64,000 bases of DNA from Lachnospiraceae bacterium (GTDB taxonomy: Bacteria; Bacillota; Clostridia; Lachnospirales; Lachnospiraceae): assembly GCA_014239155.1 (NCBI GenBank), contig JAAZZQ010000022.1, positions 1 to 64,000 of the forward strand, read 5' to 3'. This document shows, one piece after another, positions 11,912 through 17,710 of the stretch (position 1 is the first letter of the stretch; the number at the start of each line of letters is the position of its first letter). Both the position numbers and the translations under genes were made by a program. The notes beneath the pieces were generated by a model. It was not told the origin of the DNA. It ran no database searches and saw nothing but the letters and a program-made list of their open reading frames with translations.

Positions 11912-11967
11912 AATCGCAATACAATAAAACCATGACATGCGTGTCATGGTTTTATTGTATTGCGATT
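11912..11967 (+). terminator. Terminator after argS
   Basis: A perfect 26-bp inverted repeat (AATCGCAATACAATAAAACC and complement) with a 4-nt loop begins 5 bp after the argS stop. Its inner arm supplies TTTTATTG on the downstream side. The stem is unusually long for a simple terminator. No further element is visible from here to 12200. Confidence 0.75.
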
Positions 11968-12208
11968 ATTAGACAAGACAAGCTTTTGTCAACTGTGAAC
12001 AGTAATAAAACGGAGATAAAGTTACTTTTACAAGCAATGTCAGTTCGTTAAGAATTATGAAAATCACATAAATAGTCTGAATATAGGAATAAAGAGTTAT
12101 TTAGAAATGAACCTTGGAACAAATGGTATGCATAATGCCATTTGCTAAGTAGTGTTTTTCTTTTATTACATAACAAATAAACAGGTATGAAAAATATCTG
12201 CCTTGTGG

Positions 12209-12214
12209 TATAAT
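12209..12214 (+). promoter_or_regulatory. Possible extended -10 promoter of the CooC/dehydratase cluster
   Basis: TGG followed by TATAAT resembles an extended -10 box. No convincing -35 is visible. It would start transcription near 12221, leaving a leader of about 180 nt before the first gene. Confidence 0.4.
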
Positions 12215-12257
12215 GATTTTGTCAGTTAAAATCGGTATGTAAAGCTGACTGGTACTT

Positions 12258-12364
12258 GGAATCTTTGCTGGCGGGCAAAGTTCCTGTCCGGTCTGATAGG
12301 AAGCGTATGTTTTCTTATCAGATCTAACACATCAAGGAGGAAAGATAAGTCTTCCTGTTTGATG
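12258..12364 (+). promoter_or_regulatory. Structured leader with three hairpins
   Basis: Three consecutive stem-loops can be drawn between the likely promoter and the CooC-like gene: 12258-12284 (CTTTGC/GCAAAG inside GGAA/TTCC), 12291-12322 (TCTGATA/TATCAGA) and 12330-12364 (CATCAA/TTGATG with GGA/TCC inside). The third contains a buried GGAGG. I do not recognise a known riboswitch class. The remaining intergenic sequence (11968-12208) is AT-rich with nothing I can name. Confidence 0.4.
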
Positions 12365-12399
12365 AATATAGATAATAAATAGTCATAAAGAGGTGTGTA

Positions 12400-13173
12400 A
12401 TGGCAGAAGCAATACAAAATAACACAAAAATAATTGCAGTGGTAGGAAAGGGTGGCGTGGGAAAAACTTCACTGGCGGCAGCAATGGTCAAAGTGTTAGT
12501 AAACCGCTATCCCAACAAGAGGATCCTTGCCATTGACGCAGACCCAGCGGTTGGTTTGTCTACTGCGCTAGGGGTGGAGGTACGCGGGACCATTGACGAT
12601 ATCCGAAAGGCGGTTGTGGCCACGGTAGAGGAAGGGAATAACAGAACAGCGCTAGAGCTTCTAGCAGAGTCGGAATATCGTATTTATGATGCGATGACAG
12701 AGTGTGATGGCTTTGTGTTTATTGCAGTGGGGCGCCCTGAGAGTGCAGGATGCTACTGTAAAATTAATAATTATCTGAAAGCAGTGATACAGTTACTTGC
12801 TCAAAACTTTGACTATGTGGTAATTGACGGGGAGGCTGGTATTGAGCAGATTAACCGGCGTGTAATGGAGAAGGTGACACATTTACTTCTGGTGACAGAC
12901 ACAAGCCGTAAAGGAACACAAGTCATTCAGACCATTCATCAGGTGGCAAATGAGCTGGTGATGTACGAGAAAGTGGGAGTTGTGGTGAACCGTGTGCTAT
13001 CAGAAGCCTCCATCAAACTGATTGACACAGGAAATCTTCCGGTTGTAAGTTATATTTACTCGGATCAACAGCTCGCAGAGACAGATTTAAGAGGGGAGAG
13101 TGTTCTGGCACTTCCTTTTGATACAGAGCTGGTGCGGGGAGCGGCTGAGGTGCTTGAAAAGATGGGTATTTGA
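12400..13173 (+). CDS. CooC/AcsF-like nickel-insertion ATPase
   Basis: This is a P-loop ATPase of the MinD/CooC group. CooC proteins use ATP to load nickel into carbon monoxide dehydrogenase, and the related AcsF matures acetyl-CoA synthase. The deviant Walker A GKGGVGKT is at residues 16-23, DADP at 46-49, and the metal-binding Cys-x-Cys in GRPESAGCYC at 118-120, the position expected for CooC. At 257 residues the length fits. It is the first gene of a run leading to dehydratase-like subunits and a short CdhC relative, so its likely client is a metallocentre in one of those proteins. No full CODH or ACS gene is in the window. Confidence 0.85.
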   Translation: MAEAIQNNTKIIAVVGKGGVGKTSLAAAMVKVLVNRYPNKRILAIDADPAVGLSTALGVEVRGTIDDIRKAVVATVEEGNNRTALELLAESEYRIYDAMTECDGFVFIAVGRPESAGCYCKINNYLKAVIQLLAQNFDYVVIDGEAGIEQINRRVMEKVTHLLLVTDTSRKGTQVIQTIHQVANELVMYEKVGVVVNRVLSEASIKLIDTGNLPVVSYIYSDQQLAETDLRGESVLALPFDTELVRGAAEVLEKMGI

Positions 13174-13236
13174 CAAATTGGGTGATGCAAAAGCAGCGAC
13201 AAGAATTTCTAAAAATATAGAATAGTGGAGGCAAAC

Positions 13237-14412
13237 ATGAGAGATTTATCACAGCTATATACATTTGAAAAGCTTTTGGAGGAGGCAAATAATGCGTTGG
13301 TGCGCGAGGGGATAAAAAGGGGGCTTCACTCAATTGGAAGTGTCTGTTCGTTAGCGCCGGAGCCATTATTGAATTTGCCAGGTTGCTTTTCGGTTCGGCT
13401 GCGGGCACCACGAACAGGATCTATTGATATCGGTACATATTACATGTCAAGCTTGCTGTGTGAGTGTTGCCGTGCAATTTTAGAGCGGGCCGTTGAGGGT
13501 GGATATCAATTTCTTGATTGTATTATTGCCCCAGATGCGTGTTCTCAGATGAATCGATGTGTGGAGAATATTGAGCACTTAAATTGTATTGAGAACGCTT
13601 TTGTCTCTTATTTTGATGCGCCTATGAAATCGGATGAGACCGCACTGCGCCATTATGTGCGGCAGATGCAAGAGCATGTGCTAAAACCATTATATGAAAA
13701 GTTAGGAGTGGACATTTCAGATGCAAGTATCCGAAAAGCGGTGGAACAGCACAATCAAATCTGTTGTGTTTTGCAGGAGTTATCAGAGTACCGCAAGGAG
13801 GAAAATCCACGTATTACAGGATATGAGTTTGCAGTTCTGTGCACAGCCACTTACTGTTGCCCTAAGGAGCTTTTAATCGAAAAACTTACCTCAGTGGCAG
13901 AGGAGTTGAAGACACGGAAACCGGATGAAAAACCGGCGTTTCGTGTAAAAGTAGTGGTTGCAGGCTCAGAGATTGATGATCCTAATCTTATTCAATTAAT
14001 AGAGGAGACAGGGGCTAGAGTGGTGGCGGACCGCTTCTGTTTTGGTGCTCTTCCAGAGCGGGAGCCGATTGTACTCAATGACACGGAAGATGCGCTGACA
14101 CAGGTGTGCAGACACTATCTTAAAATTGGAAAGTGTCCGCGGTATATGAATGCAGAAAAAGTCTTAGAGCGTCAAGAATATGTGCGGCAATTAGTGCAAG
14201 AATACCATGCGGACGGTGTAATTTATCAACAGATGAAGTTCTGTGATTATTGGGGATATGAGCGTGCGTATGCGTCAAAAACTATGCGGGAGACATATGG
14301 AGTGCCAACACTTTCTATAGATAGACCCTATGTGACAGGAATTTCAGGGCAGCTTAGGACTAGATTTCAGGCGTTTGTGGAGAGCCTAGAAATCAAGAAG
14401 CGTGGTATTTAA
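13237..14412 (+). CDS. 2-hydroxyacyl-CoA dehydratase-family subunit (HgdB-like)
   Basis: The 391-residue protein belongs to the HgdB/FldC/BcrC superfamily, whose members bind [4Fe-4S] or double-cubane clusters and carry out low-potential reductions. The three expected cysteine sites are visible: LCECCR (near residue 75), APDACSQMNR (near 105) and QMKFCDYWGYE (near 335). The C-terminal family signature GQLRTRFQAFVE is present. Neighbouring genes are a CooC-like ATPase, a second dehydratase-like subunit and an activase. No CoA-transferase or acyl-CoA dehydrogenase is nearby, so the usual amino-acid fermentation role is not supported. The start at 13237 is chosen because GGAGG lies 7 bp before it. 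Confidence 0.85.
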   Translation: MRDLSQLYTFEKLLEEANNALVREGIKRGLHSIGSVCSLAPEPLLNLPGCFSVRLRAPRTGSIDIGTYYMSSLLCECCRAILERAVEGGYQFLDCIIAPDACSQMNRCVENIEHLNCIENAFVSYFDAPMKSDETALRHYVRQMQEHVLKPLYEKLGVDISDASIRKAVEQHNQICCVLQELSEYRKEENPRITGYEFAVLCTATYCCPKELLIEKLTSVAEELKTRKPDEKPAFRVKVVVAGSEIDDPNLIQLIEETGARVVADRFCFGALPEREPIVLNDTEDALTQVCRHYLKIGKCPRYMNAEKVLERQEYVRQLVQEYHADGVIYQQMKFCDYWGYERAYASKTMRETYGVPTLSIDRPYVTGISGQLRTRFQAFVESLEIKKRGI

Positions 14413-14436
14413 CAAGAAAGGCATGGTGTCAAAAAG

Positions 14437-15975
14437 ATGGGAAAACAGATGGGCAGTGAGAAACTTGGTTCATTTTATACAGGAAAAAAAGCAAGAAAGC
14501 GACGTGAGTGGCGCGGCTTTAAAGATACAATGTATGATTATGCGCAGTGGCTGCGTATCTGGGGTGTGCTAATTGGTTTTGCCACAAAACCTAATAATGT
14601 GAAAGCATTTTTTCGTTATCGCTGGATGGTCAACTACTTGGTGGTGCCAGACTTTTTTGACAGACATACAGAGGGTATGCGTGGCGCACAGCTTCGCATC
14701 ACGCACACAGCGCTCAGCATTGTCGTTATCGACATGTGCAAGAGCATGACTAGAATGTTTAAGGCGGATCCGAATATTGGTAATGATAAAAAACTTAGAA
14801 AGAAAATGGTACTCTTTGATGAAAATATGATGAGTGAGATTATGAATGGATTTCCGAATCTGATTTGGGTTTCGGTGGAGGTGCCTGCGGTGTATACTTG
14901 CGCTATGATGGTTCAAAACGGTGTGGTTCATTATACAGACGCGGCGCAGACCTACGGTGTGCCGTCAGATGTCTGTCCAATGCCGCTTGCGGAACTTGGC
15001 GTTGCTTTGGAGGATGATTATCCCAGAATTGGCGCCTGTGCGGTGCATTGTAATACAACTTGTGACGGAAGTCTTATGGGAAACAGCATTGAAGGCCAAT
15101 ATTTTGGCATTCCCACCTTTGAGCTTGCTGTGCCAATCCGTCATACATATGACAGTGTGCAGCCGTATGCGGTGGAGGAAATTCAAAATTGTATTGCCTT
15201 TATTGAGAAGCACACTGGGGAAACTTTTGACTGGAACGCCTTTTTCAAAAGTATGGAGCTTTTTAATGTCGAGACACAGAATATGTTGGATTGGTTTGAG
15301 ATTAGCCGCACCAAGTATCCACAGATGATTGGTACGAATTTGGCGCTTTACCGATATTGTGTCTATCAGGCAACAGGTGGCAGATATGAGGTGTTCCGAA
15401 AAGTTGAGGAAAAGCTCAATCGTTATATTAGAAGAGGCTATGAGCGAAAAGAACTGGTCTGCCGTGAAATTCGTCATCGCGCAATTACTTGGGGTGTGCA
15501 GTCTGCATATTACACTGCATTTACAGTCTGGCTGCAAAACTGCTGGGGTATTGCGGCGCTTGTGGATATGTTAAGTTTATGTTCTACGCGTATGATAGAC
15601 ACCCACGACAAGCAACAGGCGCTTAAAGATCTGGCATACTTATATGGAAAGATGATTATGCGAAGCCGCTCAAATGGCGGTTATGAGGTTGGTGTTGAGG
15701 ATTTATGGCGTTTTTGCGAGAGCTTTGATGTGGATGTGGTCATTATGTATTGCCATATGGGGTGCAAGGCAATGTCCGGCTATCATGGACTTTTTGAGGA
15801 GGAGGCGAGAAAACGCGGCATTCATCTGATTTGGGTTAATCACAATCTAATGAAACCGGAGGACGGCTCGAGAAAAGACATGCGAACAGAAGTGAATCGG
15901 TATATGCGTACAGTGTTCCGTGAGGAACCGCTTGACCCAAGTCTTGAGGACTTTGACGACGATAATAATTGGTAA
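14437..15975 (+). CDS. 2-hydroxyacyl-CoA dehydratase-family subunit (HgdA-like, extended)
   Basis: This 512-residue protein is the second subunit of the HgdA/HgdB type. Its C-terminal half shows the family pattern (MYCHMGCKAMSGYHG followed by a LIWVNHNLMKPEDG segment near the end), and CNTTCDGSLMGN lies near residue 210. It is longer than typical subunits (about 380-480), mainly through an N-terminal region of about 90 residues. It likely forms a heterodimer with the preceding subunit; the two genes are 24 bp apart. The true substrate is unknown. The start is uncertain because no strong ribosome site precedes it. Confidence 0.8.
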   Translation: MGKQMGSEKLGSFYTGKKARKRREWRGFKDTMYDYAQWLRIWGVLIGFATKPNNVKAFFRYRWMVNYLVVPDFFDRHTEGMRGAQLRITHTALSIVVIDMCKSMTRMFKADPNIGNDKKLRKKMVLFDENMMSEIMNGFPNLIWVSVEVPAVYTCAMMVQNGVVHYTDAAQTYGVPSDVCPMPLAELGVALEDDYPRIGACAVHCNTTCDGSLMGNSIEGQYFGIPTFELAVPIRHTYDSVQPYAVEEIQNCIAFIEKHTGETFDWNAFFKSMELFNVETQNMLDWFEISRTKYPQMIGTNLALYRYCVYQATGGRYEVFRKVEEKLNRYIRRGYERKELVCREIRHRAITWGVQSAYYTAFTVWLQNCWGIAALVDMLSLCSTRMIDTHDKQQALKDLAYLYGKMIMRSRSNGGYEVGVEDLWRFCESFDVDVVIMYCHMGCKAMSGYHGLFEEEARKRGIHLIWVNHNLMKPEDGSRKDMRTEVNRYMRTVFREEPLDPSLEDFDDDNNW

Positions 15976-15998
15976 AAAGTGTTTAGGAGATTGAGCTT

Positions 15999-16790
15999 AT
16001 GAGATATTATGGTGGTTGTGATGCAGGGAGCACCTATACGAAGTGTGTGATTATTGATGAAAATAGTAAAATTGTGGCACATGTCACCAACAGAAGCCGT
16101 ATCAATCCTGTATTAAGTGCAGAGGCGGCGCTTAATGAAGCTGTTTCGCAGGTGGCAGATTTGCATTCGACAAGAGATTTAACCTATTTAGTCGGTACAG
16201 GATATGGACGCAATAAAGTGCCTTTTGCCGATGAAAATATATCAGAGATTAGCTGCCATGCGATGGGAGTGCACATGGCAAATCCCAAAGTACACGCTGT
16301 CATTGATATTGGCGGTCAAGATGTCAAAGGGATTGCGATTGACACAGATGGGACGGTGCTCAACTTTGCAATGAATGACAAGTGTGCGGCTGGAACAGGG
16401 CGCTTTTTTGAGAGTATGGCAAATGCCTTTGAAATGTCACTGGAGGAATTTTCCAAATTGTCATTAAAGGCTAAAAATGTGATTCCAATCACTGCACAGT
16501 GTACTGTTTTTGCTGAGAGTGAGGTGGTTTCTCTTGTTGGTGAGGGAAAGCCAATGGAGGAGATTGCAGCAGGAATACAGCTCTCTGTTGCAAAGCGGTG
16601 CTTTGTTATGGCAAAGAAAGCGGGGGCGACAGACAGCATTACGCTGACTGGGGGATGCGCGAAAAATGAAGGTCTAAAGCAGGCGATTGAGAAAGTACTC
16701 AAAATTAAGGTGGTAAATCTTTCAATTGACCCGCAACTTATAGGGGCATTTGGGGCAGCAGAGTATGCGAAACAAAAAAGCCCTATTTAA
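15999..16790 (+). CDS. Acyl-CoA dehydratase activase (HgdC/BadF-type ATPase)
   Basis: This is the ATP-driven electron-injecting partner of HgdAB-type enzymes, a homodimer with one [4Fe-4S] cluster between subunits. The ASKHA nucleotide fold is clear: GGCDAGSTYTK at residues 5-15, VIDIGGQDVK at 101-110 and TGGCAKNEG near 216. The bridging cysteines are Cys129 (NDKCAAGTG) and Cys168 (ITAQCTVFAE), matching HgdC. At 263 residues the length is standard. Its position after both dehydratase-like subunits indicates that the pair works as a reductively activated enzyme. Confidence 0.93.
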   Translation: MRYYGGCDAGSTYTKCVIIDENSKIVAHVTNRSRINPVLSAEAALNEAVSQVADLHSTRDLTYLVGTGYGRNKVPFADENISEISCHAMGVHMANPKVHAVIDIGGQDVKGIAIDTDGTVLNFAMNDKCAAGTGRFFESMANAFEMSLEEFSKLSLKAKNVIPITAQCTVFAESEVVSLVGEGKPMEEIAAGIQLSVAKRCFVMAKKAGATDSITLTGGCAKNEGLKQAIEKVLKIKVVNLSIDPQLIGAFGAAEYAKQKSPI

Positions 16791-16809
16791 TACAAGAGAA
16801 GGAGCAGAT

Positions 16810-16974
16810 ATGAATCTTAAAAAAATAATATTTAGAGCGGGTTTTGTGGCTGTAGTATTTTTTGTGTTGACATTTACCATTTATTTTTTTAACCTTGATA
16901 TGAAAATGGCAGAGAAAATAATGCCAATGATCTCAAAACAGTACGATAAAGTAAAGAAGGAAAAGCGATTGTAG
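16810..16974 (+). CDS. Small single-span membrane protein
   Basis: A 54-residue protein with a basic N-terminus (MNLKKIIFR), one transmembrane segment (about residues 10-29) and a Lys-rich tail. GAAGGAG lies 6 bp before the ATG. It sits between the activase and the CdhC-like gene with short gaps, so it is likely co-expressed with them. I do not recognise the family. It could anchor the complex or be unrelated. Confidence 0.65.
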   Translation: MNLKKIIFRAGFVAVVFFVLTFTIYFFNLDMKMAEKIMPMISKQYDKVKKEKRL

Positions 16975-16993
16975 GATAAGGAATAACATAGAC

Positions 16994-17710
16994 ATGAACC
17001 TTTTTGATAAAATGATAGACAAAACATTAGCTCAGCTAAATGGTCTCTCAACAATAGAAAATGCAAGGTTGGCAACGCCATCAAGGACATGGGCAGATGT
17101 AGGAGAACATCACATGATACTTGAAAAAGAGACCGCGTATGAGCTTGGCGGGCAGGGTACACTTGGATTAAGCGGCTGTCTTTATACAACAGAACCAATC
17201 CTGTTTCCACAAGGAGTCTATTTATATGGAAAGGATTTGGCACAAATCACAAAAAGTCAGTCTTATGCGCGGCTTGTGTTTGTTCAATTAGAAGAGAGCC
17301 ACAGTGAAGAGGCGCTTTACCGGAAAATTCGAGAGATAGATTATGTGTGCTATCATGTTCACCCAGAAGGATATATGGCGCGAATCTCGCCAGTTTGTCA
17401 GCGGGAACCAGTGCGCATTAGCAGAAAGGCATTGAAAAAAGGAATTAGCTTTGCGGATATCGGTCAAATGTATCTTACACAATATCACAAAATTCATCAG
17501 GTGAAGAATATTAATGTGATCTATATAACACACACCGGTTATAATTATCGGGCATTAGACGGTTTACTTTGCAAAGCGGAGCAAATCACACAATCTCTAA
17601 ATCATATTTTTACGACTGTAAATATGGACTGCAATACTTGTGGCCTTAAGGTGGTGTGTGATGAGATAGAGGAGTTGCGAGAGCTTCATTTTGGACGAAT
17701 GATTCTTTAA
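16994..17710 (+). CDS. Short CdhC/AcsB-like protein (acetyl-CoA synthase relative)
   Basis: The 238-residue protein resembles the core of CdhC, the acetyl-CoA synthase (ACS) subunit that carries the nickel-iron A-cluster. Matching features are YELGGQGTLGL (49-59), a YGKDL segment (78-82), the strongly similar block EPVRISRKALKKGISFADIG (138-157), and a Cys-x2-Cys-x5-Cys set at 213, 216 and 222, where ACS proteins place the first A-cluster cysteines. The protein stops 16 residues later. CdhC is about 460 residues and AcsB about 700, so the later Gly-Cys-Gly-Cys part is missing. It may be a minimal metal site or a scaffold. The CooC-like gene upstream supports a metal-loaded protein. The assignment rests on motif memory, not on a search. 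Confidence 0.7.
   Translation: MNLFDKMIDKTLAQLNGLSTIENARLATPSRTWADVGEHHMILEKETAYELGGQGTLGLSGCLYTTEPILFPQGVYLYGKDLAQITKSQSYARLVFVQLEESHSEEALYRKIREIDYVCYHVHPEGYMARISPVCQREPVRISRKALKKGISFADIGQMYLTQYHKIHQVKNINVIYITHTGYNYRALDGLLCKAEQITQSLNHIFTTVNMDCNTCGLKVVCDEIEELRELHFGRMIL

Follow-up and report, generated by a model that had tools for sequence, protein, structure and literature searches.

ATP-driven reductases with an [8Fe-9S] double-cubane cluster catalyze reductions that rank among the hardest in biology, and a role is known for few of these enzymes. Among the described members, bzd-type benzoyl-CoA reductase (BzdNO with BzdPQ) binds its [8Fe-9S] cluster through C36/73/100/263/293/327 of BzdN and a [4Fe-4S] cluster through Cys95, 128 and 380 of BzdO (PMC11971306). 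Related systems are 2-hydroxyisocaproyl-CoA dehydratase and the double-cubane cluster protein (DCCP) with its reductase, for which acetylene, azide and hydrazine are given as substrates (PMC11971306). Nickel, in turn, is delivered to carbon monoxide dehydrogenase (CODH) by CooC-type ATPases, and CooC binds nickel at a metal site formed by Cys112 and Cys114 (PMC6006190). Here we describe a six-gene operon that brings together relatives of both, located in a stretch of 64,000 nucleotides (the window; positions 1 to 64,000 of the 245-kb contig JAAZZQ010000022.1, assembly GCA_014239155.1) from a Lachnospiraceae bacterium. With a probability of roughly 60%, and judged from sequence, the operon would encode an ATP-driven double-cubane reductase together with a dedicated helper set in which a CooC/AcsF-type ATPase and a truncated ACS relative act as a pair.

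Organization of the operon

The six genes noticed in the original prediction were recovered as six open reading frames (ORFs) on the + strand at 12400-17710, and their arrangement is conserved as an operon in relatives. The genes are as follows:

12400..13173, + strand: CooC/AcsF-type P-loop ATPase with the motif CYC (C118, C120), assigned by its PDB match to CooC 3kje, the conservation of CYC and its tree position
13225..14412, + strand: short HGD-D subunit, BzdN-like, predicted [8Fe-9S] carrier (PF06050, six invariant cysteines); the true start is probably the Met codon at 13237
14437..15975, + strand: long HGD-D subunit, HadB/BzdO-like, with a predicted [4Fe-4S] cluster at C180, C209 and C443
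15999..16790, + strand: activase, HgdC-type ATPase (TIGR00241, C129 and C168)
16810..16974, + strand: 54-amino-acid membrane protein with a single hydrophobic stretch and the motif YFFNLDMK (compare the aromatic-[ND]-L-[DN] motif upstream of mini-CdhC, below)
16994..17710, + strand: mini-CdhC, consisting of the middle domain of acetyl-CoA synthase (ACS) and C213-x2-C216-x5-C222, followed further on by H232

Reductase pair and activase

Both subunits matched PF06050 (HGD-D), with 295.5 bits for the short and 139.1 bits for the long subunit (cut-off 28.4). The six cysteines of the short subunit were invariant in 64 of 64 aligned homologues and map onto the six [8Fe-9S] ligands of BzdN, whereas HadC, which has P35 and A261 at the positions of C41 and C272 of the window, has two ligands fewer. 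(Conservation counts exclude identical copies, sequences outside set lengths and those containing X or stops.) A six-cysteine [8Fe-9S] site of the BzdN/DCCP kind is thus predicted for the short subunit from sequence and fold. The more specific models remained under their cut-offs, namely NF040772 (DCCP equivalog; 150.6 bits, cut-off 350), TIGR03190 (BzdN model for bzd-type benzoyl-CoA reductase; 98.1 bits, cut-off 453.8) and the HadC model (105.7 bits, cut-off 700).

The closest fold to the long subunit by Z was dehydratase 3o3m_A (31.8), with BzdO at 30.5. Cysteines C180, C209 and C443 of the long subunit were each conserved in 60 of 60 homologues; C180 aligned on Cys95 of BzdO and C209 on residue 129, one position off Cys128, and C443 fell near Cys380 in a weak alignment only. 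Sequence and fold together indicate a HadB/BzdO-type partner with conserved, putative cluster cysteines. The activase scored 227.8 bits with TIGR00241 (cut-off 125.4), and its C129 and C168, which we take to hold a [4Fe-4S] cluster, were conserved in 64 of 64 homologues; on the same kind of evidence it is the presumptive usual ATPase electron donor of the superfamily of class I benzoyl-CoA reductases, 2-hydroxyacyl-CoA dehydratases and DCCP. The six [8Fe-9S] cysteines, the HadB/BzdO-like partner and the canonical activase support the earlier proposal of a low-potential, ATP-driven reductase.

The window agrees with bzd-type benzoyl-CoA reductase in the six [8Fe-9S] cysteines of the short subunit, the ATP-driven activase and a long subunit with putative cluster cysteines and a BzdO-like fold. 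It differs in having one activase gene instead of two, a longer long partner with conserved tails, a short subunit far under the BzdN cut-off, a constant association with a CooC-type ATPase and mini-CdhC, and no recognized CoA ligase nearby. With DCCP and its reductase it shares the six-cysteine double-cubane site and the ATPase electron donor, but there are two different subunits, one of them with six cysteines, plus helper genes, and NF040772 is under its cut-off. Superfamily, fold and activase are those of 2-hydroxyisocaproyl-CoA dehydratase; however, HadC lacks two of the six cysteines, and no dehydratase pathway genes were recognized adjacent to the operon in the window.

CooC-type ATPase

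The first gene product was classed as a MinD/ParA-type P-loop ATPase in Pfam and NCBIfam, and its best PDB match was CooC 3kje (5.6e-16), with CYC aligned on CYC. CYC was present in 57 of 57 homologues and the deviant Walker A motif GKGGVGKTS was conserved. In a tree of 41 proteins (including 19 helper ATPases, 12 'A' copies and 9 'C' copies), the helper ATPases formed a single clade (100/100), which grouped with the 'A' copies of CODH/ACS-type operons, away from the 'C' copies (99/98). ACS was found within the fetched stretch for 7 of the 12 'A' copies, two of which (L198, L199) were without CooS, and five of the nine 'C' copies stood beside CooS in operons also containing ACS; both kinds of ATPase thus occur in CODH/ACS operons. 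From L198 and L199 we guess, tentatively, that the 'A' ATPases are AcsF. The single sequence nearest to the helper clade was the ATPase of L203, which has a long branch and belongs to another reductase operon (97/92).

The window's ATPase therefore shares with CooC/AcsF the deviant Walker A, the CYC metal motif and a tree position beside one ATPase type of CODH/ACS operons, but it is linked to a double-cubane reductase. The argument for nickel comes solely from this CooC-type ATPase, which makes nickel loading plausible.

Mini-CdhC

Mini-CdhC is an ACS middle domain with a short cysteine loop. Taken alone, it was just under the CdhC cut-off in the Pfam search, scored 18.6 bits with TIGR00316 (cut-off 355.95), and gave zero matches at E<=10 in a PDB search with its sequence (P0006). 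Profiles matched ACS, at 2e-8 with 13 members and, more weakly, at 5e-7 with 53 members. From alignment A2, 7 of the 59 listed mini-CdhC were removed by hand (L075, L101, L102, L110, L112, L123, L051); from alignments A2-A4, members more than 85% identical had been removed beforehand. The protein shares with ACS/CdhC the middle domain fold and probably also the first part of the cysteine loop of the A-cluster, but lacks the N-terminal domain. It keeps C-x2-C-x5-C plus a histidine, whereas the CGC motif and the C-terminal domain were missing from nine mini-CdhC aligned with four full ACS; no further conserved cysteine was found among 78 members. Given the CGC motif and C-terminal domain missing from these nine, an A-cluster in mini-CdhC was ruled out, and the A-cluster-like nickel site that had been proposed was not borne out.

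Distribution among genomes

In the order sample (392 genomes), the long subunit was searched with P0003 at E<=1e-20 and mini-CdhC with a profile at E<=1e-5, and both genes were found in the identical 23 genomes. The same held for 7 of 391 genomes in the class sample, four of which are also in the order sample, and for 9 of 36 genomes in the genus sample. (The non-matching genomes of the order and class samples were listed in part, and within each sample the draws for the two genes are taken as the same from their equal sizes and the listed genomes; five of the 12 mini-CdhC profile matches in the class sample were taken for complete or partial ACS, with open frames of 715-719 or 537 amino acids, and were not counted.) Every tested genome with the long subunit thus also has mini-CdhC, as a single copy, and the identical genome sets argue for one functional system. 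Four genera (g1, g26, g30, g34) each have genomes with both genes and genomes with neither. Mini-CdhC was single-copy in 23 of 23 order-sample genomes, in which the long subunits numbered one to three (at least two in 12 of the 23).

The 28 entries with the cluster represent 26 distinct genomes (G193/G428 and G222/G432 are duplicates). CODH was over its cut-off in three of these 26 genomes (four of the 28 entries), and ACS in none of the 26. One copy of the ATPase at >=50% identity was present in 25 of the 26, compared with 0 of 19 other genomes, three of which had copies at 31-35% identity; the sole exception is G447, a draft in which the contig breaks off within the cluster. HypA exceeded its cut-off in 21 of the 26 cluster genomes and in 9 of 20 others. 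Being absent from the window's genome, it was ruled out as an essential part.

A proposed helper set and its client reductases

A genome scan yielded 461 mini-CdhC-like stretches, and the following counts refer to the loci with enough upstream sequence among the best 80 of the 461. The activase was present at 56 of 62 loci, the ATPase at 48 of 52, the long subunit at 47 of 56 and the short subunit at 45 of 54; all four genes occurred together at 39 of 52. The distance limit of the activase count misses L057 and L058, where the activase sits behind an inserted gene; at L063 no activase was found at the locus. An aromatic-[ND]-L-[DN] motif was encoded immediately 5' of mini-CdhC at 65 of the 70 loci having >=400 bp upstream.

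Nine loci with upstream room had no long subunit nearby. In 8 of 8 examined it is encoded elsewhere in the genome (L071, L073, L077, L084, L108, L121, L059 in G005 and L060 in G002; G240 and G436 in this search are one genome); the ninth locus, L095, carries no reductase pair. At L121 the ATPase and mini-CdhC stand side by side, with the remaining genes not there, and at L043 and L044 the reductase pair stands alone, with mini-CdhC on a different contig of the genome. Scattering of the genes, named in advance as evidence against a common system, therefore does occur, but each of the eight such genomes examined retains both halves. When 36 long subunits and an outgroup were placed in a tree by a quick method, several deep groups emerged, and the two long subunits at each of L052, L053, L055 and L133 fell into different ones.

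The statement that the six genes form a reductase accordingly needs revision: a reductase is present, but it accounts for two of the genes, while the other four form a helper-like set that is sometimes encoded elsewhere. ATPase, activase, membrane peptide and mini-CdhC are best read as a putative helper module common to a family of ATP-driven double-cubane reductases. That one helper set would serve several reductases follows from the unlinked pairs, the single ATPase and mini-CdhC, and the divergent long subunits per genome.

Neighboring genes and upstream region

An IsrA-like oxidoreductase with HypA lies next to the cluster in Pseudobutyrivibrio and others (L047, L066); the likeness is drawn from size and from the gene company described in PMC10134865, not from alignment. 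Neighbors of the old yellow enzyme (OYE) family (L050, L052-L055, L132) had BaiCD and bilirubin reductase as nearest models, far under the cut-offs. Either as the partner of the cluster was dropped, being present in some lineages only. At L196 (G723) the cluster adjoins a gene partly like aldehyde ferredoxin oxidoreductase (AOR) and an iron alcohol dehydrogenase, and at L195 a GAF/PAS regulator and an oxidoreductase that by its look is similar to that of L196. Together, the neighbors suggest reductions of unsaturated or aromatic compounds and no more.

The unlinked pairs have heat-shock, Fur-type, rubrerythrin and thiamine genes (by eye) and nitrogenase-like genes (by model) as neighbors, from which a substrate guess was dropped, the genes having no common theme. 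At L192 (5943-15158) an unlinked pair lies near NifH-, NifE- and BchB-type genes, all under the cut-offs, and a methylthioadenosine/S-adenosylhomocysteine nucleosidase-like gene. L203 (6834-16550, G617) is a second benzoyl-CoA-reductase-like operon, broken by two opposite-strand frames. It encodes a CoA ligase, a CoA-transferase-like protein and a CooC-type ATPase together with a long subunit, a short subunit with six cysteines (by eye) and two activases, one of which exceeds the bzdQ cut-off. By this example, a reductase acting on CoA esters may have a CooC-type ATPase at its side.

Another genome of the window's genus (L019, G016:C13) has the cluster at 99.7-100% protein identity, followed by the same genes as in the window. 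In a sister species, a DUF3829 gene lies between activase and mini-CdhC (L012, 5142-6263), unlike in the window, and similar genes were judged by look at L013, L015, L017 and L018.

Two features were recorded upstream of the ATPase gene:

12187..12214, + strand: promoter-like site, TG before the -10 box TATAAT (consensus scan, 10/12 matches)
12215..12399, + strand: 5' leader with strong RNA folding (z -4.9 against shuffles, stretch 12215-12400)

With 19 promoter-like sites seen in the region and 14.6 expected, the site at 12187..12214 is no evidence of function. The leader had zero Rfam family matches at E<=1, and the sequences upstream of the operon at sister loci, compared by eye, were dissimilar to it; on these grounds a riboswitch was dropped in spite of the good folding. 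A near-perfect long inverted repeat at 11916-11963, which follows the upstream gene, resembles a terminator on the - strand; low-score, sub-threshold microRNA matches of the Rfam search fall on it, probably by chance.

Proposed mechanism and alternatives

We propose that the activase would hydrolyze ATP and push electrons into the [8Fe-9S] cluster of the short subunit, from which they would pass to the [4Fe-4S] cluster of the long subunit, the presumed site of substrate reduction. The CooC/AcsF-type ATPase and mini-CdhC would work as a pair, like maturation ATPase and ACS in their home system. Through its CYC site the ATPase may give a metal, most likely nickel, or a conformational push; mini-CdhC may serve the long subunit, with the ACS middle domain and the C3H loop used for docking and as a metal or Fe-S carrier, and the membrane protein probably tethers it.

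To our knowledge, Escherichia coli has no CooC. BzdNO was produced in E. coli (PMC11971306), so the double cubane alone seems not to need helpers, which should then supply something else. Since 23 of the 26 cluster genomes are without CODH and all 26 without ACS over the cut-off, the likely client is the reductase or mini-CdhC. Nickel would be the first metal to consider for the helper set. A bolder version, which we regard as possible but doubtful, is a double-cubane reductase of a new class, containing nickel or some other hetero-metal. In this version ACS-less bacteria would have recruited a truncated ACS and an AcsF/CooC-type ATPase that, as a pair, load metal into several paralogous enzymes resembling benzoyl-CoA reductase.

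Several points weigh against the proposed mechanism. HypA, another nickel chaperone, is missing from the window's genome and four more cluster genomes (G108, G234, G419, G447), and this, together with the CGC motif lacking in the nine mini-CdhC compared with four full ACS, would count against the idea that the ACS system was simply copied. The cysteine loop matches that of the A-cluster weakly, in MAFFT and one HMMER alignment; the profile-profile alignment to ACS stops at residue 184, before the loop, and many of the structural alignments reach no further than about residue 207. L203 is a CooC-linked reductase operon without mini-CdhC, the link to IsrA-like or OYE-like reductases is limited to some lineages, and the co-occurrence counts cover the long subunit only, in related, overlapping and hence non-independent genomes. 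The clusters themselves are deduced from cysteines.

Among the alternatives, the best surviving one needs no extra metal: mini-CdhC would be a small Fe-S electron carrier feeding the activase, and the CooC-like ATPase would merely regulate docking. One Fe-S cluster could be bound by C-x2-C-x5-C with the histidine, there is no CGC nickel motif, the genes for the membrane protein and mini-CdhC directly follow that for the activase, and HypA is not needed. Known activases, however, accept electrons from ordinary ferredoxin, and the invariant CYC (57/57) and the kinship with CODH/ACS maturation ATPases would be left unexplained. We consider this reading rather unlikely.

Less probable still is that the whole system is an activator, in which the pair has no substrate of its own and feeds very low-potential electrons to other enzymes, comparable to the activation complex of methyl-coenzyme M reductase (MCR). 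The differing oxidoreductases found by differing pairs (IsrA-like with HypA, OYE-like, and AOR-like with iron alcohol dehydrogenase) would fit, and MCR is a known case of ATP-driven activation via [8Fe-9S-C]-like clusters (PMC12176620). The long subunit, however, has the fold of a substrate-reducing enzyme, and no such oxidoreductase neighbor was recognized in the window or the listed loci of its genus.

An ordinary 2-hydroxyacyl-CoA dehydratase with unrelated neighbors, named beforehand as the finding that would speak against the original prediction, has the closest fold by Z in its favor but is very improbable given six cluster cysteines against four in HadC, a HadC score far under the cut-off, no dehydratase partners recognized among the neighboring ORFs and the co-occurrence with mini-CdhC.

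Significance

The reductase belongs to a known enzyme type, but its constant association with a truncated ACS and a CooC/AcsF-type ATPase is new as far as the literature was searched. No described system of this composition was found there, as the original prediction had stated, although a mention within the main DCCP literature is possible. The hosts, Clostridia that avoid oxygen, live in gut, rumen and elsewhere, in many cases in animal guts, and include cultured Pseudobutyrivibrio and Clostridium gasigenes. Many Clostridia would thus possess an [8Fe-9S] reductase family with a constant helper set akin to the nickel machinery of acetyl-CoA synthesis, and two questions become testable: whether CooC/AcsF-type ATPases have clients beyond CODH/ACS, and whether a double-cubane enzyme may contain another metal.

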